DNA from: Symbiodinium sp. CCMP2592
Lineage: Eukaryota > Sar > Dinophyceae > Suessiales > Symbiodiniaceae
Reading direction: 5' to 3'
Length of the DNA stretch: 64,000 nt
Assembly: GCA_905221615.1 (NCBI GenBank)
Contig: CAJNDT010001002.1
Span: 396,001-460,000 of the forward strand
Shown here: positions 12,241 through 61,600 of the stretch, in pieces
How the letters are laid out: each line of letters opens with the position of its first letter
Numbering within the stretch: the first letter of the stretch is position 1
The notes under the pieces: model-generated
The model's database searches: none
Seen by the model: only the letters and a program-made list of their open reading frames with translations
What the model was told of the DNA's origin: nothing
Position numbers and translations under genes: made by a program

Positions 12241-12249
12241 GAAGAAGAC

Positions 12250-16516: not shown

Positions 16517-16519
16517 GAG

Positions 16520-27021: not shown

Positions 27022-29615
27022 AGCGTGGAAGGCACAAAGCGGTCAATGCTCGCCGGATGAACCCTCGACTTATGCAAATGTAGTCCATTTGCAGTCTCAA
27101 ATGAAGCCGCGCAGAGCGCGCACTCGTATGAGGTTACCGGATGTTCCTCGGGCTCAGGGAGTTGTGACAGGACCAACAGCTTATCTCGGATAACCTGCAG
27201 AACCGAGGGGTCTGTCGTGATGTCCGGGCTTTGCACTGCTCGTCGCTCCAGTTTGCGAAGCCGCTTCCTTAGCTTGGACTGCAGTGCGTGGACAGGGTCC
27301 TGGATGTTGTAGAGCTGGAAAAGATCCTTAGTGGTGATCCGAGTGGTGTGAGCCGGCAGGTTCAGCACCGATCGTACCTTGTAGGCGTGCCAGCTGCGAA
27401 GCTGTTTGGCCGACTCTTCGCTTAAACCGACGTCAGATAGGCCAGTCGTCAAGGTGCCCAGGACAGTACTCTGCCACACCTTAAGGCGCGACATGGTACT
27501 TGCATACCTGCGGTTGTAGACGAATTGGCGAACTTGATGCAACTTTTGCTTCGCCTCCCCCATCCGAAAATGCAGAGTCTGCAACTCGAAGTGGTTGTAG
27601 GAGATCATAACTCCTAAGTACTTGCTTGAGGAGACCCACTGGAAGGCAGGGAACGACTTGTTGGGCCCGATGCGCCACCCTCTGACTGGCTCTCCTTTGG
27701 GGTTGGTAATCCAGCAGCTGTGTTTGTTCATCACATTTTGTGCTTCTCTACCTGCCAGCTTTACCAAAATGACGCACTTGCCGATGTTGACTCTGAGTCG
27801 ATGTTTGCGGACCTCCTCCAACAGGGCAGCTATAAGTGCATGGATGGCCTTGAGGTCCTTCTCAGAACGAATAGTCCTATGAAGCGTCAGGTCATCGGCG
27901 TAGCCCGTTAAAAACTTCAGAACCTGTTCAGCACCGAACAGATCCACCAGAGACCGGAAGAGGTCACCTGTGAGGAACGAGAATAGGGTGGGAGCGAGCT
28001 TACATCCTTGTTTAATGCCTGCTGTGGTTTCGATAGAAGTGGAATCGCCTTGGGCATGTAAGACGTATCTGGATCCGTCATGGAGAGCTTGAACGAGGTG
28101 GACTGTGTCCTGATCGGCCCCCTCACGCTGAAGGAGACCGATAATCTCTTGGCGAGAGACTGTGTCAAACGCCTGGCTTAGGTCTAAAGCAAAGGTCAGA
28201 CCGCCTACTAGAGATGGCACCTGTGTGCCTTGCTGTATAGCATGTCTCGTAGGATGAGCCTGCTCCAACAAAGACCGAGCCTCCCGCAGATGGCACACGA
28301 CTCGTTCCAGCGCATCTGAAAGCCCACGACCAGGAAGGTAGGCAAACTGTGGCATGTGTTTTAGGAACGAGAGGGTCAGGGGTTGTAGCGCCTCTCTTGC
28401 CGCTCCAGCCAGTCCTTTAGCATCCGGTCTCAAAATGCCCAAAGGACGCAAGTTTGCTGGCTTGTCCGAAGGCTTGCCAGGTTTGGGGATTAGACACAGA
28501 TCTGCGTCGATGAGATCAGATTCTAGTCCATCCTCTACTTGTTTAGCAGCCACATGTCGGGAAAGGACCGGTGCAATGACGTCACTGCAAAGTCTCCAAA
28601 TGGCAGCAGGTGCAGCTCCGTCAGGCACAGCTTTGTTAGGCTTGATGGAATGAATGTGAGCGGCTAATTTGGATGACTCCAAAACCGGAAAAGCTCCAGT
28701 CATTGGCCTCAGCGGGAGGTGAGCCGCGAAAACCTGGTTCGCGTACTCCCTGAGTGCCGCAAGCTCCTGCGCTGGGCCTAGAAGATGTCCTGTGCTGTCC
28801 TTGAGCTGAGCCCGACGCGCCGGCTGCCAAGGCTGCAGCTTTTTAAGGGTTTGAAACGAAATATGTTGGTCGCCCTCCGCTATGCTGGCGTCAACTTCAG
28901 CTATGAAACCCGCTATTCTGTCCTTTTTTGCTTGCTTCACAGCTTGTCTGTGCGCAACTTGCGCCAGCTCCACCTCAGTTTCCGGTTGAGGGAGTGTGTT
29001 CAACCCAGGAGGCTGTGCCATTGGTTGATGAGGCTCGATCAGCTGTGCTGAGGGAGCTGTGTTGTCTGCCCTGCAAAGGGTCCTGGCCCTCCACATACGT
29101 CGAGTCTCGGATTCAAGCGGGATCAGTCGTCTTTTGGGGAGCTTGGGGAAGAAACGTTCTGCACCCTCCAGCAGCAGTGCATTCCAATCTGAAGGGTCCT
29201 GACAGGACTCCATTCTGGATGCTACCCAACTATGCAGTGCCTTGGCTGTGTCGTCCTCCTCACGGACTGCGGCCTGAAGAGCTAGGGAATCATAACGGCG
29301 TGTGCTTCCCTTGTGCGGTGGGAGTAACCAGTGGTGCTGGAGGGGGATTTCGGCCTTAATTGGGTAGTGCCCTCCCTTCTTCCAGCTACCCAACGGGCAG
29401 TCCGTCCAAGGGGCAGACCTTTTGGCCTTGCCTCCTGCAGTGGATTCCTTAGTAAGGACAAAATCGATTTGCGACTCCACGCCACCTTGAGCAAAGGTGG
29501 CAATGTTGTCACAGTGCCAGGTATTAACAACCTTAGCAGCAGGTTGGACAAGTGGGATTCGTCTGGACGATCCTCCGTGGGCTGCTTCACGTGTGTACCC
29601 ACCAATGGAGGACAC
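26907..29615 (-). pseudogene. LINE reverse transcriptase segment
   Basis: The frame opens with the last endonuclease motifs (SQIDFVLTK, GGHYPI) and then encodes a non-LTR reverse transcriptase. Visible parts are a fingers region with LCLIPKPGKP and NLRPLGIL, motif A with LDLSQAFDTV (near 28166-28200), motif B with GIKQGCKLAPTLFSF, and motif C GYADD at about 27891-27902, so the catalytic aspartates are present. Thumb and connection follow, then a C2H2-like finger (CALCAASF...HKSRVH). No RNase H domain was recognised. The frame terminates at 26907, after running about 115 bp beyond the point (near 27020) where homology moves to the next frame. Confidence 0.9.
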
Positions 29616-30406
29616 GAGCGCAGTGAGGTATTAAAGTCGCCTGCCACGACTAGAGAATCCCGCTTGGGCACCTGCTTGACCACCTTAGACATGACTGATA
29701 GTACATGAGCACGGTCGTCCTTGTTAGACTGGATGGACTTGGCCGAGGACCAAGCATGTTGATACACAGCCACAATGACCAGCCTAGTACCTGCCATGTC
29801 TGCCCGAGCTTCAAGGACCCTGCCTGGACTCCACTCCTTCCAGCGAAGGCTCTTGGCTGCAAACTTGAGTGAGAAGAGAATCATGACGCCATCCGCCCGG
29901 GTCGTGGATGGAGCCGCGTTCGGTTCCTGCCTAGTCTTGCGCTTCGCGCCCTGCTTCTGCTGGGCGCTACGTTTGGCAGACTCCGAGGCCGAAGAGATGC
30001 AATGTCAACCTGAAACACTGAACTCGCTAGTCTCCGTCCAGTGCGTCTCCTGCAGGATAAGGACGTCGCAGTGGTGGGAGGCTTCAGCCGCCAGCCACGT
30101 TTTTAGTTCTCCCCATTGCTGTTGACCTAGGTGCCCCGCGTTCCAAGAGACTACCCGAATGGATCTTTCTAGTCGTCCTGCCCTGCGGGAGGCTGTGCCA
30201 TGTGCAGGGGAGTCAGCAGTCTGTGACTGAAGCTCTCTTCGAGTCGGTGGGGGCCGCACCCCCAACTGGTTGACTAGGGTCGGTGTCAGAACCTGTCCGC
30301 GGTATGGTACGGGTCCGTCACTTCTGATTGTCCGTCTACATGCTGTCTTGAACGAATTCTTGCGAAGAGATGCAAAGTTTTGTGAGTGCACTGGTAGTTG
30401 CGCCAT
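29282..30406 (-). pseudogene. LINE APE-like endonuclease domain, interrupted by TGA and frameshift
   Basis: The N-terminal part has an Arg/Pro-rich leader, then RVVSWNAGHL and DVLILQETHW, the Asn- and Glu-bearing motifs of the EEP/APE fold. A TGA at 30005-30007 follows SEFSVSG, where LINE endonucleases usually have Trp. The same frame then continues through ADGVMILFS, VAVYQHAW and VVAGDFNT (catalytic Asp/Asn motif). The frame is lost near 29540, and the final endonuclease motifs (SQIDFVL and GGHYPI) are found in the overlapping frame 26907-29615. This domain nicks target DNA to prime reverse transcription in LINEs. The TGA is best explained as a TGG to TGA mutation, which would make this copy inactive unless read through. 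Confidence 0.85.
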
Positions 30407-42942: not shown

Positions 42943-43033
42943 ACCCGATGCTGTGAGTCCAGAAACCCTCTGTGTAACAGCCGGAGCCACGTGGAACACC
43001 AGACCCGCAACTCAACCCTCATAAATGATTTAA

Positions 43034-43098
43034 AACCCTAAACCCTAAACCCTAAACCCTAAACCCTAAACCGTACAGTAAACCCTAAACCCTAAACT
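43034..43098. repeat. Interstitial telomeric tract (CCCTAAA)n
   Basis: Five or more perfect CCCTAAA units at about 43034-43071, a 9-bp interruption, then two more units to about 43097. CCCTAAA is the complement of TTTAGGG, the telomere repeat of plants, dinoflagellates and some other alveolates. Many degenerate heptamers flank it. It could be a relic of chromosome fusion, a break healed by telomerase, or local slippage of the dispersed heptamer. Confidence 0.9.
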
Positions 43099-48958: not shown

Positions 48959-49079
48959 GGAGTGTCTGGCAGATGAGGCCGGCGCGGGCGTGGGTCCAGC
49001 TTCCGAGTTGAGGGTCGGTCAGTGTGAGAGTAGGAACTACATTCTGATCGAACGGCTCCCTGAAGCTGCATTATATGCA

Positions 49080-49570
49080 TGCCAGTCTGTCTGTCCACCC
49101 GTCCGTCCGTATGTATGTGTATGTAGGTATGCAGGTATGTATATTGTGTTTACTGGTCTGATTGTCTGTCTGTCTTCCGTCCATATGTCTGTCCGTCTTT
49201 CTGTCTCGGTATGGTTTCCTCTTTGTATGTAGGTTTGTGTATCTGTCTAACTTGTCGGTCTGTCCGTCTGTCCATCCGTCCGTCCGTCCGTCTGTCTGTG
49301 GGTGTGCCTCTGCTTGTGTCGGTCGGTGAGTCTATCTGTCTGTCCGTTCATCGGTCTGCCTCTGCGTCTGTCATGTCCGACCTCCTGTCTGATATCTGTC
49401 TGTCTTCCTGTCTGTCGGTATGCGTGTGCTGATATCTGCCTGGCTGTCTTTCAGTCACTCAGTCAGAGTGCCTGCCTGCCGGCCTGCCTGTATGCATGTT
49501 ATGTTATGTTATGTGTGTATGTGTGTATGTATGTATGTATGTATGTATGTATGTATGTATGTATGATTGT
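49080..49570. repeat. CTGT/CCGT microsatellite followed by (TATG)n
   Basis: CTGTCTGTCCGT-type units run through 49085-49450 and a purer (TATG)n tract covers about 49500-49564. It ends about 50 bp before the left direct repeat of the Penelope-like element. Confidence 0.9.
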
Positions 49571-49619
49571 GTAGGTAACTACTAGTATGATGATAAGCCT
49601 ATGTCTATGCATATGTACA

Positions 49620-50012
49620 TGTTTGTGTTATTCTGCTGTACGTGCGACAAATCTGCACTTACATGTCCGCTTTCCTAATGGTTTCCTTTCTGAAGACTTT
49701 TGTCGCTGCATGCTTTGGCCTATGGAAACTCCTTGTTTTTCTTGCTTGCTTTTTTCATGGTTTTCTTTCTTTCTTTCTTTTCTGTCGTTTTTCTTTCAGT
49801 TTGCAGGGGGCGCGAGGTCCGGTGACAAAGCTCGCGCCAACGAAGCACTTTGTCACATGGACAGGTAAACGTACCGTTCCTGGGTGCAAGAGCACAGCTG
49901 GATTGGTCACATGCAAAACCATGATGATGATTTTCTCGGTTGTCCGAAACTTTTCACTTCACTTCACATGCTGAAACTTGGACATGTCTGCAGAACGCCT
50001 CCTCAGTTGTGT
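49620..50012 (+). repeat. Left pLTR-like direct repeat (393 bp)
   Basis: It matches 60545-60945 except for G/A at 49642, A/T at 49847 and an 8-bp insertion in the right copy after GTAAACGTACC. It contains a (TTTC)n pyrimidine tract ending in CAG (about 49762-49806), which looks like a splice acceptor. A CAG/GTAAAC donor-like junction is at 49864/49865 and a CTGCAG acceptor-like site ends at 49993. No start or end inverted repeats were seen. Confidence 0.95.
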
Positions 50013-50232
50013 TCGGCAAGAGCTCCCTCATGAGGGCCTTGTCGCTATTCGGCGAAGTTGCCGGCCCACCGGGGTTCTTGTTTTAGCAGCTTTGGAGATC
50101 ATTTCCGTTTCACAACATGTTCAAGTGGAGATCACTGAGTGGAAATCACACTTCCGGAAAGCAGAGTGGAGTGGCGTCCGGAGATCACTGACGATTGCAT
50201 ATGTTGTCATGTTTAGGCATTTTCTGGCTTGA
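49663..50232 (+). CDS. Putative ORF0 spanning the left repeat, joined by a predicted 129-nt intron
   Basis: The frame from ATG 49663 encodes a hydrophobic, Phe/Leu-rich stretch (from the TTTC tract) and then GARGPVTKLAPTKHFVTWT up to 49864. Removing 49865-49993 (GTAAAC...CTGCAG) joins it in phase to ERLLSCVRQELPHEG and continues to the stop at 50232, about 35 bp before ORF1. The 8-bp indel between the repeats falls inside this proposed intron, as expected if the flanks are coding. In the right copy the upstream codon 60567 is ATG where the left has GTG. The hydrophobic part may be a signal or membrane segment, or simply repeat-coded. The splicing is a prediction only, and unspliced translation from the in-frame ATG at 49984 is an alternative. 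Confidence 0.35.
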
Positions 50233-50266
50233 GACTCGCATTCAAGTGTTGCTCCTGCACCCTGCC

Positions 50267-51655
50267 ATGGATCGTGAGCGCTCCCCACGCCGTAACCCCT
50301 ACTGGAGCTCCTCCTTGCCTGCTTCGGTCCCACCTGCCCCTGTGAGTTGGCAAAATCCCACACCCCGTCCGGCCCCACCAGTGACTCGACCGACAGTGCT
50401 TCAGCCACAAAACCTTACATGGCAACCTAACCCACGGATCGCTCAGATTATGAACATGTCGCCGACCCCCCGCATCCCCGGTCTCCCTTCCCCACCTGCT
50501 GCAAACTCCCCTCGAGTTTTCGGCCCGATGCTACCTGCTGAGTTCTGCCAGAGTCCGAACTATTTGGACTCCCGCTGTATTGCAGGCTTGGACTTGGCTC
50601 GTTGGGTCAAGAAGACTGATTGGACAGTTCGAAAGCAGATTGACGGATGTCCAACCCACATGATACCGCTTCATTCGTTGCTCTATCAAGGCTGGAATTC
50701 GTATTGGGTACGTCATATTGCAGAAGGCAAGCCGACTTTCTTCGCAGGTTTCAAGTCGATTGGTGAAGTTGTATTTTGTCACGCACTGTTCGGAAAGTTG
50801 CGAGATGAAGAAGTCGACTTGGATGAGCTTGCTTCTATTGTGCTTGGTACCAATGATCCCGCTTCCGAGAGCAGTGGCTCGGATTCCAAGTCGCAGGCCA
50901 CACATTTGTTGGCGCAGAAGGTTGTTGACTACATGTTAGGTCTGTATCCTCAGGCCTCGGTTGACACGGAGAAGGCAGCCATGGCGAATCAGATTCAGAT
51001 TCTTCAACAACAACTTGCGAATTTCGAGAATGCCTCCCCTTCCCGCTCTTCTAATCAAGGCGTTGCAGATCAGAAAACTTTGCCGATTGAAGAAAGCCCC
51101 CCGGGACGTGTACCAGAGTCCGCACCCTCAGCTCAAAAAGTTCCTGATGGTGCAACCCGTCTTCTTCGTGGTCAGACTGGTGAGCCCAAAAGTAATCTCA
51201 TGCAGGCATTCCAGAAAGGAAAACCATCGGGGAGCCAGGCAGAACCGTTGAGCATTGAGAACGATGAAGTTGAGACCCAAGGTCGTAGCCCAGGAAATTC
51301 GAGCTCTGCTCCTCAGCCTGAGTATGGGACATCCTCGCATGTTGGACAAGTTGTGAAGATTGTTCTCACGGATCCATCCAAACGTCACTTCTTGAGTCGC
51401 AGCTGGAAAGCTTGCAAGTCGGACAAGGAAGTGTCGACATGGATTGAAGGCTTGAATTTGAGCAAAAACAATCGCCAGAAGCTTCAGACATGGACGGCTC
51501 ATGTGCAACGATGGCATGCGGACCTTCCTTCCAATGAGCAGGCCGAATTGGATCAGGTTGTTGCCAACTGGGGTGTGCCCATCCGTGATATTCCCAAGCT
51601 TAAGGCGAATTCCTTGCTGCGTATTCTTGCTGCCGGAACAATTCTTGTGGCTTGA
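50267..51655 (+). CDS. PLE ORF1, gag-like protein (462 aa)
   Basis: I chose the ATG at 50267 because of its context (gccATGg) and the basic start MDRERSPRR; the upstream frame looks non-coding. The protein has a Pro-rich N-terminus (residues about 10-90), then a globular part with Trp and His (ARWVKKTDWTVRKQ, YQGWNSYWVRHIAEGKP). A short coiled-coil-like helix follows (MANQIQILQQQLANFE), then a Gly/Ser/Pro/Gln linker and a second globular C-terminal part (LNLSKNNRQKLQTWTAHVQRW). No zinc knuckle is seen. No family is recognised; the position before the RT ORF and the charged/linker architecture suggest an RNA-binding or particle-forming role. It ends at TGA 51653-51655, directly in frame with ORF2. 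Confidence 0.75.
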   Translation: MDRERSPRRNPYWSSSLPASVPPAPVSWQNPTPRPAPPVTRPTVLQPQNLTWQPNPRIAQIMNMSPTPRIPGLPSPPAANSPRVFGPMLPAEFCQSPNYLDSRCIAGLDLARWVKKTDWTVRKQIDGCPTHMIPLHSLLYQGWNSYWVRHIAEGKPTFFAGFKSIGEVVFCHALFGKLRDEEVDLDELASIVLGTNDPASESSGSDSKSQATHLLAQKVVDYMLGLYPQASVDTEKAAMANQIQILQQQLANFENASPSRSSNQGVADQKTLPIEESPPGRVPESAPSAQKVPDGATRLLRGQTGEPKSNLMQAFQKGKPSGSQAEPLSIENDEVETQGRSPGNSSSAPQPEYGTSSHVGQVVKIVLTDPSKRHFLSRSWKACKSDKEVSTWIEGLNLSKNNRQKLQTWTAHVQRWHADLPSNEQAELDQVVANWGVPIRDIPKLKANSLLRILAAGTILVA

Positions 51656-51658
51656 CTA
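51653..51658 (+). promoter_or_regulatory. Candidate programmed UGA readthrough site between ORF1 and ORF2
   Basis: The stop TGA is followed immediately by CTA (TGA CTA CAG). UGA-CUA is a well-known leaky context in other eukaryotic and viral genes. The frame after it is the same as ORF1 and open for 950 codons, while the first in-frame ATG comes only at 51794. A readthrough product would be a gag-pol-like fusion of about 1,410 residues. Reinitiation, separate trans-spliced mRNAs or selenocysteine insertion are alternatives; no SECIS-like element was searched for reliably. Confidence 0.5.
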
Positions 51659-54505
51659 CAGGCCATATTGGATGCCAGAGACCTATATCGCAGTGGAAAT
51701 CCACCACAAGGTTGGTGGAAAAAGCACCGAAGTGAAGTGGATTTGCTTCGGAATGCTCATCTATTTTTCCAAGGTCTCTACGAGACACCCACCATGTTCG
51801 GACGACAATGGATGGACATTGTTATTTGGATTCGTGGAAAACTCCTTTTGCTTGCTTGTGAGTTCGGGCTTGTACAGTTGCCATTGACCTCTCAGCTTCG
51901 TTTAAAATGTTCCAGCTACACCTGGAAATTCTTTCAGACGCAGTCGGTGCTCTATTGCCGCATCTTTCTCCAGCCTGAGTTACAGAAATTCATGTATGTC
52001 GGATCATCATCCCAAACATTGGGCGACCGTGAGCGTACAAGATGGGGGAAATACCAACAGATCCGAGCGGGCAAGTCTGTATGTGGTGAACTCTCATTGT
52101 TCTGGCATTACCGACGGCGGAATTATCACATGGCCATTCCTTTGTTAATCATGCATGTCCCACAGGCCGACTGTCTGCATACAATTGAGCAGACGTTCAT
52201 CAACTTGCTCCAGCCACGCCTTAATGCTCCCTGGGTTCGTTCTCTTGTAAGGGCAAAACATGCACAGATTGCCAACTCCGATCCTGTCAGATGTGTTCGC
52301 AGATTTGTGACTTCGTGGAGAACTTTCCGACGTTTCCGACGTCGGAACGTCCAGCTTACTGGATTGACTCCATCGGTCTTTCGCTCAACACACATCGTTC
52401 AGAACATCGTATACAGCTATCAGATTCTGTTCGACTTAGCTTCTGACGGGTTGAAGTCCTTTCTTGCTCAAAAGTATTTGCGCAGCAACAGAGTTGACTC
52501 CGATTTTCTTCACAGACTATTTCGGATGGCCACTCATCTCGGTGACCCTTTCTATGAGACGATTTGCAGGTCCAGATTGAACACGGTGCTGCAATTTCGG
52601 CAGTTGAGGTGTCCAACCACATGCCGGCCCTTATCCACTCCGTTCTTGTTACCGGAAGCAGGCTTCAAACGCTTGGTTCGTGGCATGTTGGGAGATATTC
52701 TGGATGTTTCGTCAAATCGACTGCTACCGTACCACATTCCAGCGACCTCGCTTGTTGCAAAAAGCCACCCCAAAATCAGAGAGGTTTTGTTCTCGCACGA
52801 GCGAATCTTGCAGTTGTGGGACCCGCATGAGGAACCACAGAGGGCCGGTGTCACATGTTGTTGCTCCGAGCTTCTTCGACATCATCCACACTTGACTGTG
52901 GTTCAGGGTCACATTGCATCTTCTGCCACTTTGTTGTCTTTGCCGCATGACTTGACTCAGCTGGCTCAGTCCAGTTGCTCAAATCCGGTATTCATGACAG
53001 CCACAGATCATTGGAAGATGTTTCTTGATGACGTGAGACAGTGGATCGATCATCACGGCTTGGTGCATTATCCGACTATTGATATCCGATTTGTGTGGCA
53101 GAAGGCATGGAAGCTGCATTCACAGCATGTTGGAACACATTGGTCGGTTGATCAGGTTCGTGAGTTGAAAAAACGGACCAAAGGATTGGTGTGGCATGTC
53201 CGGGACCATGAAGGCTCTCATGCACATGTCTTCTGCCCGGTGAAGTATTGGATGATGCTTCAGAACACTTTTACTGCTGAATCCGTCTTCAAGCCACTGT
53301 CGCTAAACCCCTCAACGATTATGGTTCAGATGGAGCATGCAGTCCCACCTCGGATTCTTGAAGCATTCCCCTTTCGCTTTGGATCTCGCGGTGCCCGTGT
53401 GTCATGGGCTTATATTCTCCCCAAGTTCAAGAAAGAATGGAAAGGAGGCAGGCCAATCGTTACTTTTGCCTCTCACCCGGCTCGCCAGTTCTTGGTTGTG
53501 ATGGCGAAAGTCACAGAAATGCTTGTTGCTGAGGTGTGTCCTCACACCCGATCTTACAACGATGCAATCTTGCTTTGTCAGAACATACATGCTTTCTTTG
53601 AGAAGCGATGTCACAGTCCGGAGCACGACAGACAGAAAATTGCCATGCACAATCAAGACTTGTCAGGTTTCTTCGTGAGCATTCCGGGGGAGCGGTTCAT
53701 GATCACCTTTCGCATATTACTCTGTCGATTTTACGACGTCTCGGATGCTGGTCTTGATCATGCCTTGAAAGGCGTTGTGGTGACTGTGGACTTGGAAAAC
53801 AACTTGTCGGTTATGAAAACTATTCGCGGTCGACATTGTCTGTTGCATGACAAACGAGTTGCCGTTCCCATGGACCTATTCCTGGAGGCCGTACAGGTGT
53901 CGTTTAAGTTCAATCTATTTATGGTTGGTCAGCAGGCTATTCAACAAATTAGGGGTGCATTGATGGGAAGCCATTTCTCTCCGGCAGCCTGCCATGCCGT
54001 GGTGAGTTTATATGAGCACATGTACTTCGGTAAATGCTTGTTGGAGCCCTCTCGCTTGCCAACGTTTGGCCTTGTGGTTAGATACGTGGACAATCGGATG
54101 AGTTTGATTCTTGATCGCCAGGCCAGTTATGCGGCTGTACAAGCTTTCCTGCATCAAGATGTGTATATACCGCCCATTGTACTTGAGTATGAGGATGGGG
54201 ACCTCTTCTTAGGTTTTCATGTGGATACACAACAGCTACGAGTGCAATATGTGCAACCTACGGAGACTTGGAAGTTTTTACACTCCAATTCGGCTGCCAA
54301 CACACGGACGCTGTTAAGCAGCTTTCGATCCAGAGCCCACTTGATTGCACGTGCATCCTGGCCGTTGGAGCAACGTGAAGTCGATCTTGATCAGCTTTTG
54401 CAATCCTATGTGAAACAGGGATTCGATCCGTCAATGATGCATCCCATTCTGAAACGAGTCAGGCTACAGTTTAACAATCTTCGTGCTCGCTCGACTGCCG
54501 CGTAA
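51656..54505 (+). CDS. PLE ORF2: N-terminal GIY-YIG endonuclease plus Penelope-type reverse transcriptase
   Basis: Residues are counted from codon 51668. At about 92-190 lies a GIY-YIG nuclease: VLYC (94-97) for GIY, MYVG (109-112) for YIG, Arg121 after the L-x-x-R turn, Glu174 in HTIEQTF and Asn186 in PRLNAPW. A Cys/His/Arg-rich linker follows. The RT has a fingers motif with LPKFKKEW and GGRPIVTF, motif A NQDLSGFFVSIP with Asp664, motif B GALMGSHFSP with Met766, motif C RYVDNRM with Asp808-Asn809, motif D LFLGFHVD, and a PLE thumb ending (FRSRAHLIARASW, YVKQGFDPSMM). The DLxxxFxxIP, MGSxxSP and RYVDx signatures are typical of Penelope-like RTs. In canonical PLEs GIY-YIG is C-terminal; here the order is permuted, as in the Chlamys/Naiad-type clade. 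Motif C has Asn in the second Asp position. The first in-frame ATG is at 51794. Confidence 0.9.
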   Translation, partial: LQAILDARDLYRSGNPPQGWWKKHRSEVDLLRNAHLFFQGLYETPTMFGRQWMDIVIWIRGKLLLLACEFGLVQLPLTSQLRLKCSSYTWKFFQTQSVLYCRIFLQPELQKFMYVGSSSQTLGDRERTRWGKYQQIRAGKSVCGELSLFWHYRRRNYHMAIPLLIMHVPQADCLHTIEQTFINLLQPRLNAPWVRSLVRAKHAQIANSDPVRCVRRFVTSWRTFRRFRRRNVQLTGLTPSVFRSTHIVQNIVYSYQILFDLASDGLKSFLAQKYLRSNRVDSDFLHRLFRMATHLGDPFYETICRSRLNTVLQFRQLRCPTTCRPLSTPFLLPEAGFKRLVRGMLGDILDVSSNRLLPYHIPATSLVAKSHPKIREVLFSHERILQLWDPHEEPQRAGVTCCCSELLRHHPHLTVVQGHIASSATLLSLPHDLTQLAQSSCSNPVFMTATDHWKMFLDDVRQWIDHHGLVHYPTIDIRFVWQKAWKLHSQHVGTHWSVDQVRELKKRTKGLVWHVRDHEGSHAHVFCPVKYWMMLQNTFTAESVFKPLSLNPSTIMVQMEHAVPPRILEAFPFRFGSRGARVSWAYILPKFKKEWKGGRPIVTFASHPARQFLVVMAKVTEMLVAEVCPHTRSYNDAILLCQNIHAFFEKRCHSPEHDRQKIAMHNQDLSGFFVSIPGERFMITFRILLCRFYDVSDAGLDHALKGVVVTVDLENNLSVMKTIRGRHCLLHDKRVAVPMDLFLEAVQVSFKFNLFMVGQQAIQQIRGALMGSHFSPAACHAVVSLYEHMYFGKCLLEPSRLPTFGLVVRYVDNRMSLILDRQASYAAVQAFLHQDVYIPPIVLEYEDGDLFLGFHVDTQQLRVQYVQPTETWKFLHSNSAANTRTLLSSFRSRAHLIARASWPLEQREVDLDQLLQSYVKQGFDPSMMHPILKRVRLQFNNLRARSTAA

Positions 54506-54573
54506 ATAAGTCCTTGCATCCGATGCTTAGCTTTTGTGTCTTTCGCATTCTGTAGCACCCTGTGCACCTGACG

Positions 54574-56244
54574 ATGTCCACGGAAGACAGTCTCAATTTG
54601 TTTCCAAAGTCCTCGGGCCCTCCCGGCCCTGTCAGTGGCTCTGTGGAAATGTATATTCGAAGGAGGGTCGCTCAAGAGGTGAACCGAGCCCTTGCACCGC
54701 CCGACACACTTCCAGAATGGGCACGGCCTACCGGAAGCGCCTCTGGAGGCCGCCGAGCTCTTCCTGCTCCTCCTGCCCCTCCTTCTTCTTCATCGACTCC
54801 TTCGCTCCCCCAAGCAAATGTGGATGCCGCGATCCCCCGAGCTCCTCCTCCTTCGCCCTTTTTGACTCTCACTGAGCGTAGTGGATCTTCGGCTCAGTCT
54901 ATTCAGATTCACGATGAAGGTATGGCAAATAGGGTTATTGAAAGCCTGACCTCTGTTCGGTTGTTTGGCAATCGGGGCAATCGGGACGATCGTTCAAGGA
55001 GCCCGGTATTGAAGCCGTGCCCGCCTCTTCCAAGAAAGCGTCGCCAGCTTGCTGGTGATGAACGTATGCCTATTGAGGATAAGCCCTCATCTTCTGCCCA
55101 GCTTGCTATTGTTGATGCCAGTTTCGACAAGTATGCAGTTCCGGACGGACCGGAGATTCCAGCACCCTCGACCGAATGGGTGTGTGTTGAGCCCTCCTCC
55201 GGACCACCGATCTGGGTCCAGTTTCTGGAGCCTACAAAGTTGGACAGACCTGATGTTCAGCACTCGAAGTGGCCTCAGTTCTACACTATTCGGACTGTTG
55301 CCGGGATGAATGTTTGGAATTTCGATCCGACCGCTTCAGAGAAAGAGAAGAAAAAACAGTGGCACGAAGTTGAACGATTGTTGTTACACTACAGGACTGC
55401 GATCATGAAGGATGCCAATCGTATCAAAAGTGCCACGGAAATTGTTGTTCCAGTCCTTCCGACTGGACCCTACGATCTACAAGAAAGATGGATTGCCGCC
55501 ATTTTGGCGGGAGCCGACCATCATGCCAACTATTCTTGGTCGGATGCCCAGGATTATTTTGCCATGGGCCCGGATGCCAAAAAGCAGATTCAAAGTCTTG
55601 CTCGCATTCTGTCATCGGTGCCTCGCCTTCGTCCGTTCGTCCGAGAAGATCTTCAGGCCGGTCGTGGATCTTACTGGTTGTTCCCGGGTAACACGGACCC
55701 AGACACGGGACTTGCAGATGATGGTTCGCACGAAGCTCCGCAGGGAGTTTTCCTCATTTCGACAACGAAGCTTCCGGACGATCCTGCCACCTGCTTCGCG
55801 GTGCCCTTTGTTCACAATACAGTTCCTCAGGATCTGGCGTCGATCATTAATCAGGAAGTTGTGCGGCCATCATACTTTGATAGGGCGGATCGCACATGGG
55901 TCCCATCTACCGGCTTTTATGGCCGCATGTCTTGGCCGAAACCTGCTATTCGGCTTCCAAAGCTTGACGGATCTCAGCCGGAGCATTTGAGTGCTATGAG
56001 AAATTCGATGTCCGGAGCCCGGCACTTCGGAGGAAAGCAGGTTGATTCTCGCACATGTGCGGCGCTGGGATGGACCTTTGTGAGGCAACACGCTCATTTC
56101 AAGGCTGTTAACGCCTCCGATCAAACATTCGGGCATCTCGGCGATTTGATTCATGGCCAGGATGGTCGTTGGATGTTTCGTTCAAGTCGGAGTGTCCTAG
56201 CAGGCACTGCTGTCTTTTGGACATCGTGGGCACGTGATGCATAA
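54574..56244 (+). CDS. PLE ORF3, unrecognised 556-aa protein
   Basis: The start ATG 54574 lies 69 nt after the ORF2 stop. The N-terminal 180 residues are Pro/Ser-rich and disordered-looking with basic patches (PLPRKRRQLAGD) that could be a nuclear signal. Residues from about 200 are globular and aromatic-rich (TEWVCVEPSSGPPIWVQFLE, MNVWNFDP), followed by a charged helix (SEKEKKKQWHEVERLLLHYR). The C-terminal third has a region VHNTVPQDLASIINQ...STGFYGRMSW that vaguely recalls ADP-ribosyltransferase-like folds, but I do not claim the family. Codon use and strand match ORF1 and ORF2, so it belongs to the element. A structural or DNA-binding role is possible. The function is unknown. Confidence 0.75.
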   Translation: MSTEDSLNLFPKSSGPPGPVSGSVEMYIRRRVAQEVNRALAPPDTLPEWARPTGSASGGRRALPAPPAPPSSSSTPSLPQANVDAAIPRAPPPSPFLTLTERSGSSAQSIQIHDEGMANRVIESLTSVRLFGNRGNRDDRSRSPVLKPCPPLPRKRRQLAGDERMPIEDKPSSSAQLAIVDASFDKYAVPDGPEIPAPSTEWVCVEPSSGPPIWVQFLEPTKLDRPDVQHSKWPQFYTIRTVAGMNVWNFDPTASEKEKKKQWHEVERLLLHYRTAIMKDANRIKSATEIVVPVLPTGPYDLQERWIAAILAGADHHANYSWSDAQDYFAMGPDAKKQIQSLARILSSVPRLRPFVREDLQAGRGSYWLFPGNTDPDTGLADDGSHEAPQGVFLISTTKLPDDPATCFAVPFVHNTVPQDLASIINQEVVRPSYFDRADRTWVPSTGFYGRMSWPKPAIRLPKLDGSQPEHLSAMRNSMSGARHFGGKQVDSRTCAALGWTFVRQHAHFKAVNASDQTFGHLGDLIHGQDGRWMFRSSRSVLAGTAVFWTSWARDA

Positions 56245-56481
56245 GTGAATGTTTCTATTCCATGGTTTACTTCTGTCTTCGCTTGATTTCTTCCTACTTT
56301 CAGAGTGAATGAGATCAATCGCTTGCCCACATTCTGAGTGTTGCACTCCGCCGTGGACCGCATGCTTCAAAACCAAATAACATGGATGCTAGGGTTTGCA
56401 GCCTCATGTTGCCAGTGCATTGCAGTGTTCTTTGATTCGCCTTACATGTGACTGATGATTTTTGCTCAGTAACATGATAGC
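56245..56481 (+). other. Spacer between ORF3 and the oxygenase ORF
   Basis: This 237-bp plus-strand spacer has TTTC/CAG-type pyrimidine stretches near 56270-56300 and TTTTTGCTCAG just before the oxygenase ATG. Such sites could be trans- or cis-splice acceptors for separate mRNAs. No ORF was seen. Confidence 0.4.
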
Positions 56482-57563
56482 ATGCCGACCATAGACCGCA
56501 GCCCATTTGATGTAGATGCGGATGGATTTCATTTTCAGTCATTGGATGAACTGGCTGCACAATTATCTCATGTTCTTGATGGTATCCCCCGACGGATTTG
56601 GATGAATTACAGTCGGAAGAAGGTTCGATCTACAGACCAAATTCATGCAGATCAGCTCTTGCTTGGCTTGTATTCTGGGGTGCAGTCTCGAGGAAGGCTG
56701 CAATTTACAAAGAACACATTCCGATTCCCTGGACTTACAAAGTTGATCGTTCGAATGCTACATTGTTCTCCCCAATTCTCAGATTTGGCTGTCACAAGTA
56801 TTCAGATCAATCGCAATGTTCGGACTATTCCGCACAGAGATTCAAACAACCACGGCCCAAGTATTGGTTGGGCCATTGGAGATTGGACAGGTGGAGAATT
56901 ACTTGTCATGGATGATCGAGGTCGCACTTTAATACAGTTGTCGATTCCAATTGCACTGTTGCGTCCTATGGTGACCAGTTACAAGGCAGACTCTTGGATG
57001 TCAGACAACCATGCTGCTTTGATGGGAATGTGATTCATGCCACCATGCCCTTTGCTGGAAATCGCATCATGATGGTTCGTTTCTGTGTTAAGCAACATGT
57101 TCCAGTTTCACCCCATGCGTCGTGTCTTCCTTTTGCTCGTTTTCTTGGTCTCCGTGTTCCTGTCTGCTCCTCCCTTCCCTTGTCTGTCGCTTGTGGTTCT
57201 CTTTCCTCTTCCCCTCTTCTGCCTTTGTCTGCGTTTCCTTTCTTCTCGTCCGGTCTTTCCTCGTCTCCGGCGGTTCCTTCCTCTTCTTCTTCTTCTCCTT
57301 TGTCTGTTCCTCCTCGTCCGTCTGCTCGTCCCCCGCTGCTTCCCCTTTCTCCTGCTTCCTCTGTTGCTTCCCTGGTCTCTTCGTCTGCTTCTTTCGGTCT
57401 TCCCCCTGTGTCTTCCCTTCTCTCCCGTCCTTCCTCTTCGCGGTCTTGGTCCTGCTCCTCCTCTCTCTGGTCCTCTTGTTCTTCTTTCGTCGTGTCCCCC
57501 TCTGTTCTCGATGCCGACGCTTCAGATGAGCAATGTTCGGGTGACATGTCATGGGACGCATAA
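56482..57563 (+). CDS. 2-oxoglutarate/Fe(II) oxygenase-like protein, one frame break, Ser/Pro-rich tail
   Basis: Residues are numbered from ATG 56482. The iron-binding H-x-D is HRD (His118, Asp120) in TIPHRDSNNHGPS, followed by GGELLV. The distal His (57036-57038) is in FDGNVIHATMPFAGNR, with the 2OG-anchoring Arg at 57063-57065. H-x-D...H...R is the facial-triad signature of 2OG dioxygenases. The two halves lie in frames one base apart: frame 1 stops at 57033, and the homologous frame, reading YGDQLQGRLLDVRQP, continues to 57563. The crossing point is about 56905-56960. A 1-bp deletion, programmed -1 shift, small intron or sequencing error could explain it. No classical slippery heptamer was seen. 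The roughly 150-residue tail is Ser/Pro/Leu-rich on a pyrimidine-rich strand. Its substrate is unknown; such enzymes hydroxylate proteins or oxidise nucleic-acid bases. Confidence 0.7.
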
Positions 57564-57673
57564 AAAGACTTCCTTCGTGTATGCTTATTGTGCTCGCATC
57601 GGCTGTCATGCACTGTTTCCCACTTGATCTTGATACATGTGCTCAAGAGGTATGATCCACTACTCAATAGACA

Positions 57674-58291
57674 ATGACCATGTGCCAGTTTCTTGATGTT
57701 TGGAAGGAAGAGGCGCCCCGATACTGCATTTTCTCCTTTCTTATGGTATGCAGCAGTGTGCATGTCAGCACACAGAGATGTGACAATCCCGATTATTGTC
57801 GAAGTCAGCAATTCGCTCAGTGGCAAAGATGGTTGATACATGGGATGGGCCGATGTTTCCGAGCACACAATTACCATGGACTGTCCAATGATTCTGCCAC
57901 ATTCAATTTTACACACCTTCTTCCACGATGCAGCGAATCTTTTCTGTGCATTTCTATGCAGTGCCGCATTCTGACACTGCGACATATCAAGTTCCTGATG
58001 CGATTGCGAGTTTGCCATGGTTCTCGACTGAAGCCTTCTTGTACATACCAGCTCATGGGCATTGAGACATGTTGGTGCCAACTTCACCAAGTTACGTTTT
58101 CGGCGTGCGAGTTTCCTGCTCCGCATGTCAGAGTCATATAGGTTGCCGTGAGTTCAGAAAAATTGTCAGCCGATGTTCTATTACTTGTGCGCATGCGGGT
58201 GCAAGAATGTGAGTTTTGGCAGATGTTGGTTCAAGCTATTGAGCACCGCATCCAACGTATCAATGTCCGGCTCTTTGCTGAGCTGCAATGA
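57674..58291 (+). CDS. Weak ORF with an internal in-frame TAG
   Basis: The plus frame 57674-58141 (Cys/His/Arg-rich) ends at TAG 58139-58141, then continues in the same frame for 49 codons with a strongly protein-like text (ECEFWQMLVQAIEHRIQRI) to TGA 58289-58291. Another plus frame near 57931-58055 is also plausible (VPDAIASLPWFSTEAFLYI). I cannot decide which is coding. The 3' portion (58142-58291) is the most credible and overlaps the next ORF. The long minus-strand frame over this region (57035-58126) is antisense to the Ser/Pro tail and is not called. Confidence 0.3.
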
Positions 58292-58850
58292 CATAATCAG
58301 CAGTCTGGATGGAGAACAAGTCAAGGCTCTTTTTCAGATTTTGGGAGATCGCCGGCGGAGAGAAGTGCTTCTTTCTCATCTTCGACGCCGTATTCAGTAT
58401 GATGCTGATACCCTTGTTTCGCAACATCTCGGCACGTCCTCCCATTCTGCCTCTCTGACTCCCTCTCTGCCTTCTTTGTCTTCTCTTCTTGTTTCCTCTC
58501 CTCCTCCCCCTCCTCCCCCTCCTCCCCCTCCTCCTGTTTTTCCTCCTCCCCCTCCTGTTTCTTCTTCTGTTCCTGTTCGTTTTCCGTTTTCTCCGTCTCC
58601 TTCTCCTTTAGATGTTTCTCATGGAGCCGATTCGAGTGATGTTGCACCGACAATGACAGATGGATCCACTCTCTCCCCGACGGACCCTCATCAGCGTGAT
58701 GCATTACCTCGCCGACGGCAACAGAGTGGTACTGCTGCTCGAAGAAATAGATCCATGAGTGAATCGGAAGTTCGTGAGAGATCTCGTTCGCGGTCTAGAT
58801 CAAGATCAAGTACAACTGTTTCACCTGGTGGCTCTCGTCACGTTCGGTAA
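58263..58850 (+). CDS. Pro-rich, Arg/Ser-tailed protein of the PLE (195 aa)
   Basis: I chose the ATG at 58263 (MSGSLLSCNDIISSLDGEQV) because the upstream part of the frame is not protein-like. An N-terminal helical part (GEQVKALFQILGDRRRREVL) with a basic cluster is followed by a Ser/Pro region with proline runs (about residues 85-120). The C-terminus is RS-dipeptide-rich (ERSRSRSRSRSS), as in SR-type splicing or RNA-binding proteins. No folded domain is recognised. It could bind the element RNA or recruit nuclear factors. The Pro-rich part is coded by a TCC/CCT pyrimidine-rich strand, as in the oxygenase tail. Confidence 0.6.
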   Translation: MSGSLLSCNDIISSLDGEQVKALFQILGDRRRREVLLSHLRRRIQYDADTLVSQHLGTSSHSASLTPSLPSLSSLLVSSPPPPPPPPPPPPVFPPPPPVSSSVPVRFPFSPSPSPLDVSHGADSSDVAPTMTDGSTLSPTDPHQRDALPRRRQQSGTAARRNRSMSESEVRERSRSRSRSRSSTTVSPGGSRHVR

Positions 58851-58974
58851 GATTGCTGTCTGTGCTCGATAAAATTGATGCCCTGTGCCTGCTTGCAACC
58901 TTTTGTACGGTCAGTTTTGGTTGTGCATCCTGTTAGCATGAAGCTACGAAGTCTCTTACGGCTCAATTTGTAAG

Positions 58975-59313
58975 ATGAAGCGGACAGCAAGTATGGCGGC
59001 CCTTCCGGCCCCAGCTCCGATGGTCAGGATTCCAGTTGTTGTACCTCCAGATATATGCTCTGGCGGACGAGAGATGGGTTTTTGGCTATCGATCCCAACA
59101 GATTCTACAATTGATGACCTGAAGAAGAAGGTGTGCGATGAGCTCGCGGAACGCACGGGGATTCCACCTCGTTTGAACGCTTTCCAATTACGGCAATTCG
59201 GCCAACATTTGCCGTTTACATCATCGATTTCTCGAGTTGCTGCTTTTCCGCATACCACCCAGGCTGTTCATTTTGTGAGAACATGGCCACACGAATCAGT
59301 GTGGTGGACTTGA
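58975..59313 (+). CDS. Ubiquitin-like (beta-grasp) protein, 112 aa
   Basis: After a short Ala/Pro leader comes a strand (RIPVVVPPDI), a second strand (MGFWLSIPTDSTI) and a helix with the ubiquitin-like pattern TIDDLKKKVCDELAERTGIP. The stretch PPRLNAFQLRQFGQHL follows, resembling the ubiquitin 'GIPPxxQxLxFxGxxL' pattern. The C-terminus is WWT, with no Gly-Gly, so it is unlikely to be conjugated and more likely acts as an adaptor domain. The ATG at 58975 has a purine at -3. The gene is separated from its neighbours by about 125 and 160 bp on the same strand. Assignment is by pattern only, but the spacing of hydrophobic positions is good. Confidence 0.55.
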   Translation: MKRTASMAALPAPAPMVRIPVVVPPDICSGGREMGFWLSIPTDSTIDDLKKKVCDELAERTGIPPRLNAFQLRQFGQHLPFTSSISRVAAFPHTTQAVHFVRTWPHESVWWT

Positions 59314-59473
59314 GAAGTATGCTGGTCAACGGAGCAAATGTTGTGTCTTGTTCTGCGTGCTATTAAGCTTTCGATGCACTTGCATTCAAAAAGTTTGACC
59401 ATTTTCCACTGCAGGACGTTAGCCCGAACCTTCTCGTAGTGCTTCTGTGTGTTGTAGGAATCCCTCTGACGCC

Positions 59474-59964
59474 ATGTGGGAACTTACTGTTCTGACTGAT
59501 AAAGTGCTGACCTTCACCAGCACACGACGTCATATTATCTTCTTTTCACTTTTCCGCCATTAGATCCGCTTGAGACTTTGGATGTTACTTTACGCAGACA
59601 TGGATTCCATACGATGTATGATCTTGAGCAGTTCGTTACACAATGCAGAACAGAGGGTATGAATCTTCGTGCTGAAGTGTAGGAGTTCTTCATGCAAGGA
59701 CCCAGTGTATACACGCCGATCACTTGTGAAGCTCCAGCTTTACCTCACATTGTGGTGTTCGCGTCCGTATGCAAAGAATGGTATTATTCCATTATTCGAT
59801 TGGTTGGCGATCGTACCTTCTTCAATATTCAACAGCTTTGGCGTCTTGCCCAAGTACGCCATGCAACGGTGGAATGGATTCATCATTCCAATGAAGACCG
59901 ACTGCGTATTGGATCTGCTTTCATCGATGATCTCAATGTTCGTCGCATTGTCCACCCACTGTAA
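59474..59964 (+). CDS. Small ORF broken by a frameshift and an in-frame TAG
   Basis: ATG 59474 (gccATGtgg) opens 29 codons to a TAG at 59561-59563. One base back, the reading continues as PPLDPLETLDVTLRRHGFHT to TAG 59680-59682, and then in the same frame as EFFMQGPSVYTPITCEAP to TAA 59962-59964 (RIVHPL). The three segments have consistent composition and the same strand, so one ancestral protein of about 160 residues is likely, interrupted twice. The alternative is a separate 90-residue ORF starting at ATG 59692. No family is recognised. The second segment has a charged helix and the third has aromatic residues (KEWYYSII, TFFNIQQLW). Confidence 0.45.
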
Positions 59965-60115
59965 AGTGTAGGTATGACTCGGACCTGACTGGATGATGCG
60001 ACATAAGAGTATCTGCGGTGCTTTGTCATGCAGGTTCAGACATGTTGGTCCATGTACTGTCTTTTGCTGTGTTGCATTGCAGTGCTCAAGCTTATAGGTG
60101 TCTCAGTGACCAATC

Positions 60116-60466
60116 ATGTCGTCCAGTGGCCGTCGTACTCTTCGTTATGAACCAGGGTCGAGGCGAGCCAGCGATGACTATTTGGAAGATGTTGTACAAA
60201 CAGCAGCTGACGATGCCCTTGATAATCTACGTTCCAGTCATGTTCACCCGCAAGACCTCATTCGGTTGATGCTTCGCGTTGTCGAAATCCTACGCGATTC
60301 TCCGGAATTTCAACAAAGGACGTCACAATGCTCCGGAATTTGCTCTTACCCGGACTGTGGTCGTGTTTGTGCTCGAGCAGACGAAGGTCACAATCACTGC
60401 CGATGCTATTACCACCAGGTCAATGACCGCAATGAGCGAACGAGGAAGAAGCGTAGACTTGATTAG
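60116..60466 (+). CDS. Cys/His-rich basic protein of the PLE (116 aa)
   Basis: ATG 60116 opens a 116-residue frame. An N-terminal Arg/Ser patch is followed by an acidic/helical middle (SDDYLEDVVQTAADDALDNL) and a Cys/His cluster (CSGICSYPDCGRVC...HNHCRCYYHQ) able to bind zinc. The C-terminus is basic (ERTRKKRRLD) and resembles a nuclear localisation signal. The combination suggests a small nucleic-acid or chromatin-binding protein. It is the last ORF before the hairpin and the right direct repeat. The zinc-binding pattern is not a family I can name. Confidence 0.6.
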   Translation: MSSSGRRTLRYEPGSRRASDDYLEDVVQTAADDALDNLRSSHVHPQDLIRLMLRVVEILRDSPEFQQRTSQCSGICSYPDCGRVCARADEGHNHCRCYYHQVNDRNERTRKKRRLD

Positions 60467-60529
60467 GCGTTTTGCTGCTCTGATGACCGGGAACAGTCGC
60501 GATAAAAACGTGCATCCTGAGGCTTCTGT

Positions 60530-60543
60530 GCCCCTTCGGGGGC
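60530..60543 (+). promoter_or_regulatory. UUCG-capped GC hairpin immediately before the right direct repeat
   Basis: GCCCC-TTCG-GGGGC forms a 5-bp all-GC stem with an exceptionally stable tetraloop and ends one base before the repeat begins at 60545. It may be a 3'-end signal, an RT template-recognition structure or a processing site. It is not present at the equivalent point upstream of the left repeat. The function is inferred. Confidence 0.5.
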
Positions 60544-60544
60544 C

Positions 60545-60945
60545 TGTTTGTGTTATTCTGCTGTACATGCGACAAATCTGCACTTACATGTCCGCTTTCC
60601 TAATGGTTTCCTTTCTGAAGACTTTTGTCGCTGCATGCTTTGGCCTATGGAAACTCCTTGTTTTTCTTGCTTGCTTTTTTCATGGTTTTCTTTCTTTCTT
60701 TCTTTTCTGTCGTTTTTCTTTCAGTTTGCAGGGGGCGCGAGGTCCGGTGACAAAGCTCGCGCCAACGAAGCTCTTTGTCACATGGACAGGTAAACGTACC
60801 TGCGACCAGTTCCTGGGTGCAAGAGCACAGCTGGATTGGTCACATGCAAAACCATGATGATGATTTTCTCGGTTGTCCGAAACTTTTCACTTCACTTCAC
60901 ATGCTGAAACTTGGACATGTCTGCAGAACGCCTCCTCAGTTGTGT
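60545..60945 (+). repeat. Right pLTR-like direct repeat (401 bp)
   Basis: It is identical to the left copy 49620-50012 apart from two substitutions and an extra 8 bp (TGCGACCA). Right of it the sequence becomes unique at GCATGAGTT. Confidence 0.95.
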
Positions 60946-61600
60946 GCATGAGTTCTGTGTTTGGTTTCTTATATGTATATGAACCCAAGTGAAGCCGTTG
61001 TGAGCTCAGTATGAACGCGTCATGAACTCATGAGAAGTGAAGCCCAGATGCGCCCTGGACAAAATGTCAGATGAGTGGAAGTTGATGCCCGCTGGGATTG
61101 TGCTGACTCTGTTCTGGCATGGGCGAAGCCACGTCAGTGTATGGCGACAGCCATCGACGTTCAAGTCCCCAAAGCTTTTCGCTCCGAAGGTAATGTTCGT
61201 TTTGGCACACCTCCCCTTCATTTCTCGAGAACTTCGCTTGGAATTTCCAGAGTCTGTTTGTTCTGAAGCGACAGCGAGGCGTGGCAGCTGCGCCTTACTG
61301 CCCTCCAATCTATGGAAGAGCTGCTCCCTTCGGCTGCCCTTCGGTCGTCCACCTGTGGGATTTGGGGTGGTGCGTTCAGGTGACAGAGACCTAAGCCCTG
61401 AACTCGTTCTCCTCGTACCAGCCCGGAGAAGAAATTTGCCAAGGCAGAGGCCGACGGTCGGGAAGCGGAGCTTGAAGGCTTTTGGCATAGCACGCCGCTC
61501 GGCCGGTAATCGGAGCAGTGGTTTAAGATTTATCGGGCTGACGACCAAGGAACGATTGCTAGTTTGCCAGAGCTTGCACAGCAGTTGGGCGATAAGCATC
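60946..61600 (+). pseudogene. Possible remnant of a host gene, right flank of the retroelement
   Basis: Two protein-like stretches on the plus strand are found at about 61130-61250 and 61420-61600. The latter has KKFAKAEADGREAELEGFWH, a TAA, then SEQWFKIYRADDQGTIASLP in the same frame. The frames do not join and contain stops, so the sequence looks like unspliced or decayed coding DNA. No family is recognised. A minus-strand frame of 197 codons overlaps (61006-61599) and may be chance. Confidence 0.25.

Follow-up and report, generated by a model that had tools for sequence, protein, structure and literature searches.

Within a 64,000-nucleotide stretch of the genome of Symbiodinium sp. CCMP2592 (GCA_905221615.1, C1002:396001-460000; hereafter the window) we found an 11.3-kb element that is very probably a Penelope-like, telomerase-related retrotransposon, nearest to the lineage with an N-terminal endonuclease and moving as one unit of nine open reading frames (ORFs). 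Penelope-like elements (PLEs) have common ancestry with telomerase reverse transcriptases (RTs). The reading as a nine-ORF unit is based on a gene order conserved between copies, repeat pairs specific to each copy, purifying selection, a predicted structure model in which the RT takes a telomerase-like fold, and a head-to-tail pair of copies on contig C686. A composite element of this kind had been proposed in a sequence-only reading of the window, and the proposal was supported by colinear copies, ratios of nonsynonymous to synonymous substitution (dN/dS) below 1 and divergence of the accessory ORFs in step with the RT.

Element boundaries and copies in the genome

Stop-to-stop frames between the repeats on the plus strand measured 487, 949 and 562 amino acids (aa), with several shorter ones. 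The sequence-only reading had counted ORF2 and at least six further ORFs on this strand, and comparison across copies raised the number to nine, ORF2 and eight others (Table 1). Its count of 2 substitutions and one 8-bp indel between the two terminal direct repeats was matched exactly by our alignment. The near-identity of the pair argues for a recent insertion, as had been proposed, but the window copy is already damaged, with ORF4 split across two frames and ORF8 interrupted; both are open in copies C201, C686, C4135 and C1169.

Other copies carried repeat pairs of their own, identical over 433 bp in C4135 and 446 bp in C1169 and 98.4% identical over 370 bp in C2735. The window repeat could be aligned to these over only about 50-135 bases, which suggests that the pairs are remade or homogenised upon insertion. 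C201 is a close relative, and its repeat resembled that of the window. A GC-rich hairpin, identical or nearly so to the one in the window, preceded the 3' repeat in C201, C4135, C1169, C2735, C4875 and C686. Outer flanks were unlike between the copies read, and no clear target-site duplication was visible there. Simple repeats adjoined C2735 on its left side and C201 on its right, and TGTA repeats lay about 55 bases to the left of the window copy. The window copy is contig-internal, its ORF2 beginning 447,656 bases into a 1.12-Mb contig.

We screened the 1.098-Gb assembly with ORF2, which gave at least 50 match rows from the 48 candidates scored out of 1,152, and with ORF3, which gave at least 82 from the 77 scored out of 1,122. 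Among the ORF2 matches listed, 27 spanned residues 1 to at least 944, and 24 of these had no internal stop. All 27 were followed by ORF3 on the same strand within 3 kb, as were 46 of the 50 rows; linkage was assigned by coordinates, and the distance rule missed C151, where the ORF3 match overlaps the ORF2 match by about 120 bases. The 18 contigs with an ORF3 match and no listed ORF2 match may reflect scoring limits or truncated copies. Whole spans were fetched for five of the 26 full-length matches outside the window, chosen from among the less similar ones. Three of them (C4135, C1169 and C2735) were colinear with the window copy from repeat to repeat at 78-88% identity, in keeping with the predicted gene order, while two were partial: C4875 lacked the 5' part, and C136 retained only the region equivalent to about 50780-56246, which holds the RT and ORF3 without the later cargo. 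ORF4 to ORF9 were also present in the 3' half of C201 and in C686, where two head-to-tail ORF2 copies, spaced by 11,206 bp, enclose an element repeat and the stretch bearing these ORFs. Three decayed ORF2 copies (C4479:470105-472948, C4806:941-3025 and C1324:472237-474507) had internal stops that were all TGA (6, 3 and 3, respectively), perhaps from C-to-T changes at methylated CGA codons.

Linkage of ORF2 and ORF3 predates this genome, since the Symbiodinium gene models P0009, P0010 and P0012 each hold sequence of both (40-77% identity). All named protein matches were from Symbiodinium (4 of 17 for ORF2 and 3 of 12 for ORF3). Equal longest-contig values for P0024 (ORF3) and P0029 (ORF4), both 20,605, and for P0020 and P0044, both 201,432, hint at linkage elsewhere.

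Several genes on one strand could also result if a host gene cluster incidentally holding an RT gene had been amplified as a segment, and dinoflagellates often have tandem unidirectional genes. The copies, however, are spread over many contigs, with flanks that differ among those read, and their repeats are near-identical within a copy and diverged between more distant copies, as if remade at insertion. We consider this explanation very unlikely.

Selection on the nine ORFs

Ratios of dN/dS were calculated pairwise and pooled across copies; the pairs are not independent, so the values are descriptive. They ranged from 0.07 to 0.26 over the nine ORFs: 0.09 for ORF1 (25 copies), 0.071 for ORF2 from its first ATG and 0.084 for ORF3 (26 copies each), and, with seven copies each, 0.23 for ORF4, 0.14 for ORF5, 0.26 for ORF6, 0.15 for ORF7, 0.088 for ORF8 and 0.22 for ORF9. 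Shifted or antisense frames of ORF2 to ORF9 gave 1.08-4.56, and an equivalent control on six of the seven spacers (3-7 copies, the leader before ORF1 excluded) gave 0.37-1.3. Judged by codon comparison, the nine ORFs showed purifying selection, and the expected ratio below 1 held for each. The ratios of ORF4, ORF6 and ORF9, at 0.22-0.26, are only moderately lower than those of some spacers, which go down to 0.37, and these ORFs are less distinct from the spacers than those at 0.07-0.15. Distances of ORF3 to ORF9 were correlated with those of ORF2 across seven copies (r = 0.93-0.99); the ORF1 correlation of 0.91, outside this range, includes C4875, which has hardly any ORF1.

These data also bear on whether the element is an ordinary PLE of two ORFs (ORF1/ORF2), the ORFs further downstream being nested insertions or host sequence captured passively. 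PLEs of Adineta can capture and mobilise host genes between their repeats (PMC3846280), and C136 is an RT/ORF3 copy without the later cargo. Independent copies nevertheless keep the same cargo order, and every ORF has a ratio below 1 and diverges in correlation with the RT, which makes a two-ORF element very unlikely.

Reverse transcriptase and putative endonuclease of ORF2

The sequence-only reading had described ORF2 as a GIY-YIG/RT protein. Against Pfam this description gained nothing, as ORF2 had no match above the cut-offs. The RT part was recovered by structure comparison, in which the best matches to the predicted model were telomerases, supporting an RT of the telomerase/PLE type. The RYVDN variant around motif C was found in distant relatives too. 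For the GIY-YIG part, the characteristic Y, Y-x-G, R, E and N residues were invariant and ordered N-terminal to the RT in seven of seven sequences (the window copy and six relatives), but no significant profile match was obtained for this segment and the structure model was unreliable over it. Comparison of profiles between ORF2 and eight genomic GIY-YIG frames was likewise not significant. We accordingly annotate an N-terminal GIY-YIG endonuclease as putative. A CxC motif lies between this segment and the RT, with C401 and C403 invariant in all 14 aligned sequences. Searches of PDB sequences with ORF2, ORF3 and ORF4 returned nothing convincing.

The genome contained at least 127 GIY-YIG frames (150 of 240 candidates scored). 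Five of them were read (L004-L008); they are 173-257 aa long and Asn/Lys-rich, with L004-L006 near-identical on three contigs, and look like free-standing homing or virus-type endonucleases rather than like that of the element.

The ORF1-UGA-ORF2 junction

ORF1 and ORF2 share one frame and are divided by a single UGA. We cut out 30 loci and compared those in which the match started at residue 1, the window included: UGA was present at the junction in 26 of 26 and UGA-CUA in 25 of 26. UGA-CU(A) is a weak-termination context documented in fungi and animals (PMC4207609). The retention of this stop suggests readthrough of the Gag-Pol type, which we regard as fairly likely. The 46 codons preceding the first ATG of ORF2 look coding, with a dN/dS of 0.23 (26 copies) against 0.68, 2.54 and 1.18 in shifted and antisense frames, and a protein extension of the relative P0005 (41% identity) aligns with them. 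RNA downstream of the UGA showed folding above that of shuffled sequences (z -2.5), with weak covariation.

Alternatively, ORF2 might be translated without readthrough from an mRNA of its own, trans-spliced and with ATG 51794 or a non-AUG codon as its start. Dinoflagellates do trans-splice, and an in-frame ATG precedes position 51794 in six of the 26 loci. Such an origin is harder to reconcile with two ORFs kept in one frame with just a UGA between them, with the weak-termination context (PMC4207609) retained at nearly every locus, and with the coding appearance of the pre-ATG codons; we consider it possible and rather unlikely.

Accessory ORFs

Pfam yielded nothing above cut-offs for any ORF of the element (for ORF8 only a 93-aa piece was scanned). 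The 2OG-Fe(II) (2-oxoglutarate- and iron-dependent) oxygenase-like protein of the sequence-only reading corresponds to ORF4. Split in the window, it is a continuous frame of 363-403 aa in C201, C686, C4135 and C1169. HxD, GG[ED]L and, further on, an H and an R were conserved among its relatives (18 proteins); in an alignment of 19 sequences R122 and D123 were invariant and H121 was found in 18 (P0041 differs), and the later H and R were conserved among the rows extending that far. The order HxD...H...R is a residue pattern typical of 2OG-Fe(II) oxygenases. ORF4 had neither a Pfam nor a PDB-sequence match, and its structure model (mean predicted local confidence, pLDDT, 43.6) was too poor for a fold search. 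By residue pattern we consider it a putative 2OG-Fe(II)-oxygenase-like protein.

A ubiquitin-like protein had also been named, and here (ORF7) the resemblance stands by eye, but a Pfam match or a meaningful PDB-sequence match was not obtained. The SR/Pro-rich and Cys/His basic proteins were plain from the sequence as ORF6 and ORF9, and ORF9 is possibly zinc- and nucleic-acid-binding. The ORF5 frame had 156 aa in C201, C4135 and C1169 and 139 aa in C686.

Table 1. Features of the element in the window (coordinates in window positions).
Feature	Position	Strand	Description
Element	49620..60945	+	11.3 kb, repeat to repeat
5' terminal direct repeat (pseudo-LTR, long terminal repeat)	49620..50012	+	pairwise repeat alignment
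Leader	50013..50266	+	5' repeat to ORF1; homology from ~50004 (C4135, C1169) or 49988 (C2735)
ORF1	50267..51655	+	462 codons; N-terminus rich in Pro, C-terminal region conserved; stop codon UGA at 51653-51655
UGA-CUA stop	51653..51658	+	putative readthrough site, in-frame at ORF1/ORF2 junction
ORF2	51656..54505	+	949 codons, first ATG 51794
GIY-YIG endonuclease segment, putative	51923..52270	+	within ORF2; residue pattern
RT motif C	54083..54094	+	YVDN in place of YxDD; sequence
ORF3	54574..56244	+	556 codons, no known domain
ORF4	56482..57563	+	2OG-Fe(II)-oxygenase-like N-terminal part (putative), Ser/Pro-rich tail; here 56473-57033 + 56916-57563
ORF5	57674..58141	+	155 codons, Cys-rich
ORF6	58263..58850	+	Pro-rich, then Ser/Arg-rich
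ORF7	58975..59313	+	112 codons; ubiquitin-like resemblance by eye only
ORF8	59474..59964	+	163 codons in other copies; interrupted in window copy
ORF9	60116..60466	+	116 codons, Cys/His cluster, basic tail
GC-rich hairpin	60530..60543	+	GCCCCTTCGGGGGC, immediately 5' of 3' repeat
3' terminal direct repeat (pseudo-LTR)	60545..60945	+	pairwise repeat alignment

Nine ORFs together with a Gag-Pol-like in-frame stop give the element a virus-like look, and ORF1, ORF3 and ORF5, which lack a known family above cut-off, could be structural. It might thus be an integrated or former reverse-transcribing virus with a PLE-like polymerase and structural and accessory genes. Scans of Pfam and NCBIfam (PHROGs left out) recognised no capsid, envelope or packaging family, however, IMG/VR scans with the ORF2 and ORF4 alignments confirmed no relative, and dispersed copies with paired repeats and one tandem pair fit a transposable element. 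We find a viral origin improbable.

Comparison with known elements

The element shares with PLEs an RT of the telomerase-sister type, pseudo-LTRs and tandem or partial-tandem copies (the C686 pair). It departs from the usual compact form with one RT-bearing ORF, a trait that is not defining as Terminons depart from it as well. N-terminal-endonuclease PLEs (Chlamys/Naiad), reportedly described by Craig et al. in 2021, are said to be compact, with a CxC motif linking endonuclease and RT and without a hammerhead ribozyme. The domain order of ORF2 fits this group: GIY-YIG-type residues stand ahead of the RT with CxC in between, and pseudo-LTRs, tandem copies and microsatellite beside some ends are shared. 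No hammerhead ribozyme was found either, an Rfam scan covering 49000-61500 with E values up to 2 giving only a microsatellite match. Unlike these elements, the present one is 11.3 kb long, comprises nine ORFs and conserves an in-frame UGA.

Canonical Penelope/Poseidon elements resemble it in the layout of one ORF region between pseudo-LTRs, in tandem repeats and in a telomerase-related RT, and differ in having a C-terminal endonuclease, a single ORF and a hammerhead ribozyme (PMC11167929). The LTR retrotransposon Tca2 also has two ORFs (gag and pol) parted by UGA (PMC2194720), but belongs to an unrelated RT class.

The Terminons of bdelloid rotifers, named by the sequence-only reading as the nearest gene-rich analogy with a different gene set, agree with that view as described in PMC6431247. 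They are giant PLE-class elements with accessory ORFs and head-to-tail arrays. They are also endonuclease-deficient, telomeric and up to 40 kb long, with hammerhead motifs and with exonuclease, esterase and Rep functions, and GIY-YIG-like nucleases are present in some as a separate accessory function (PMC6431247). In the present element, by contrast, the nuclease-type residues are fused ahead of the RT, the window copy is contig-internal, and neither exonuclease nor esterase nor Rep was recognised. In the literature covered, outside which lay most subscription papers, we noticed no other multigene PLE of this kind and no report of a PLE from a dinoflagellate genome.

Proposed mode of propagation

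For a nine-ORF PLE we propose that transcription would begin within the repeat. The ORF1 product would be made alone, and an ORF1-endonuclease-RT fusion upon readthrough of UGA-CUA. The endonuclease would nick DNA, sometimes in or near a microsatellite, and the RT would copy the element RNA at the nick; copying of a tandem or repeat-spanning template could restore a repeat at each end. ORF3 to ORF9 might be expressed off the same RNA, perhaps cut into single-gene mRNAs by dinoflagellate trans-splicing. Since these ORFs have been maintained alongside the RT, their products may serve the element, in ribonucleoprotein or particle formation, trafficking or evasion of host control.

A more far-reaching idea, which we hold to be doubtful, is a telomerase-lineage retroelement with a virus-like layout, comprising a readthrough ORF1-UGA-ORF2 and seven selected accessory genes, that is, a particle-forming or semi-autonomous PLE. 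If true, it would add to the routes by which retrotransposons become virus-like agents. The 2OG-like oxygenase of ORF4 might have element RNA or the translation machinery as its target. The enzyme that hydroxylates a lysyl residue of eRF1 is a 2OG oxygenase. As this hydroxylation is required for optimal termination (PMC3991326), the ORF4 protein might even tune readthrough.

Spliced-leader traces and surroundings of the element

A 16-mer of the spliced leader matched the window twice with 3 mismatches, which is about chance, and was rejected as a spliced-leader relic. A shorter 8-mer occurred 4 times with at most one mismatch in 1,225 spacer bases, compared to 0.33 for scrambled motifs; against a signal, it occurred 36 times on the plus strand of the whole window and was chosen after the spacers had been viewed. 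Spacers within 57564-60115 ahead of ORF5, ORF6, ORF7 and ORF9 held near-matches to GGCTCAAG, which we take to be the 3' end of the dinoflagellate spliced leader; chosen post hoc, they are a weak lead.

Elsewhere in the window, a LINE-like retrotransposon (long interspersed element type) was encoded on the minus strand at 25582-30004. Its RT ORF (RVT_1, E 4e-22) precedes a 486-aa ORF in an overlapping frame, which bears a UCH domain (PF00443, E 1.9e-7, above cut-off). A deubiquitinase (ubiquitin-specific protease) on a LINE-like retroelement seems unusual. A tandem array at 12247-16517 repeats a 208-bp unit about 20 times, with a higher-order period of 417 bp, and an AAACCCT repeat of about 9.6 units, an interstitial telomere-type sequence, lies at 43033-43097.

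Significance

PLEs were until recently considered compact (PMC6431247), and according to a 2025 paper they were unreported from stramenopiles, alveolates and rhizarians before the Chlamys elements of Ectocarpus (PMC12477816). The present element would extend the range of PLEs to a probable alveolate host and offers a multi-copy system for asking what accessory genes do for a retroelement. A multigene PLE at an internal site, with cargo under selection and an in-frame stop that is conserved, would demonstrate that the PLE class, too, evolves complex gene sets.

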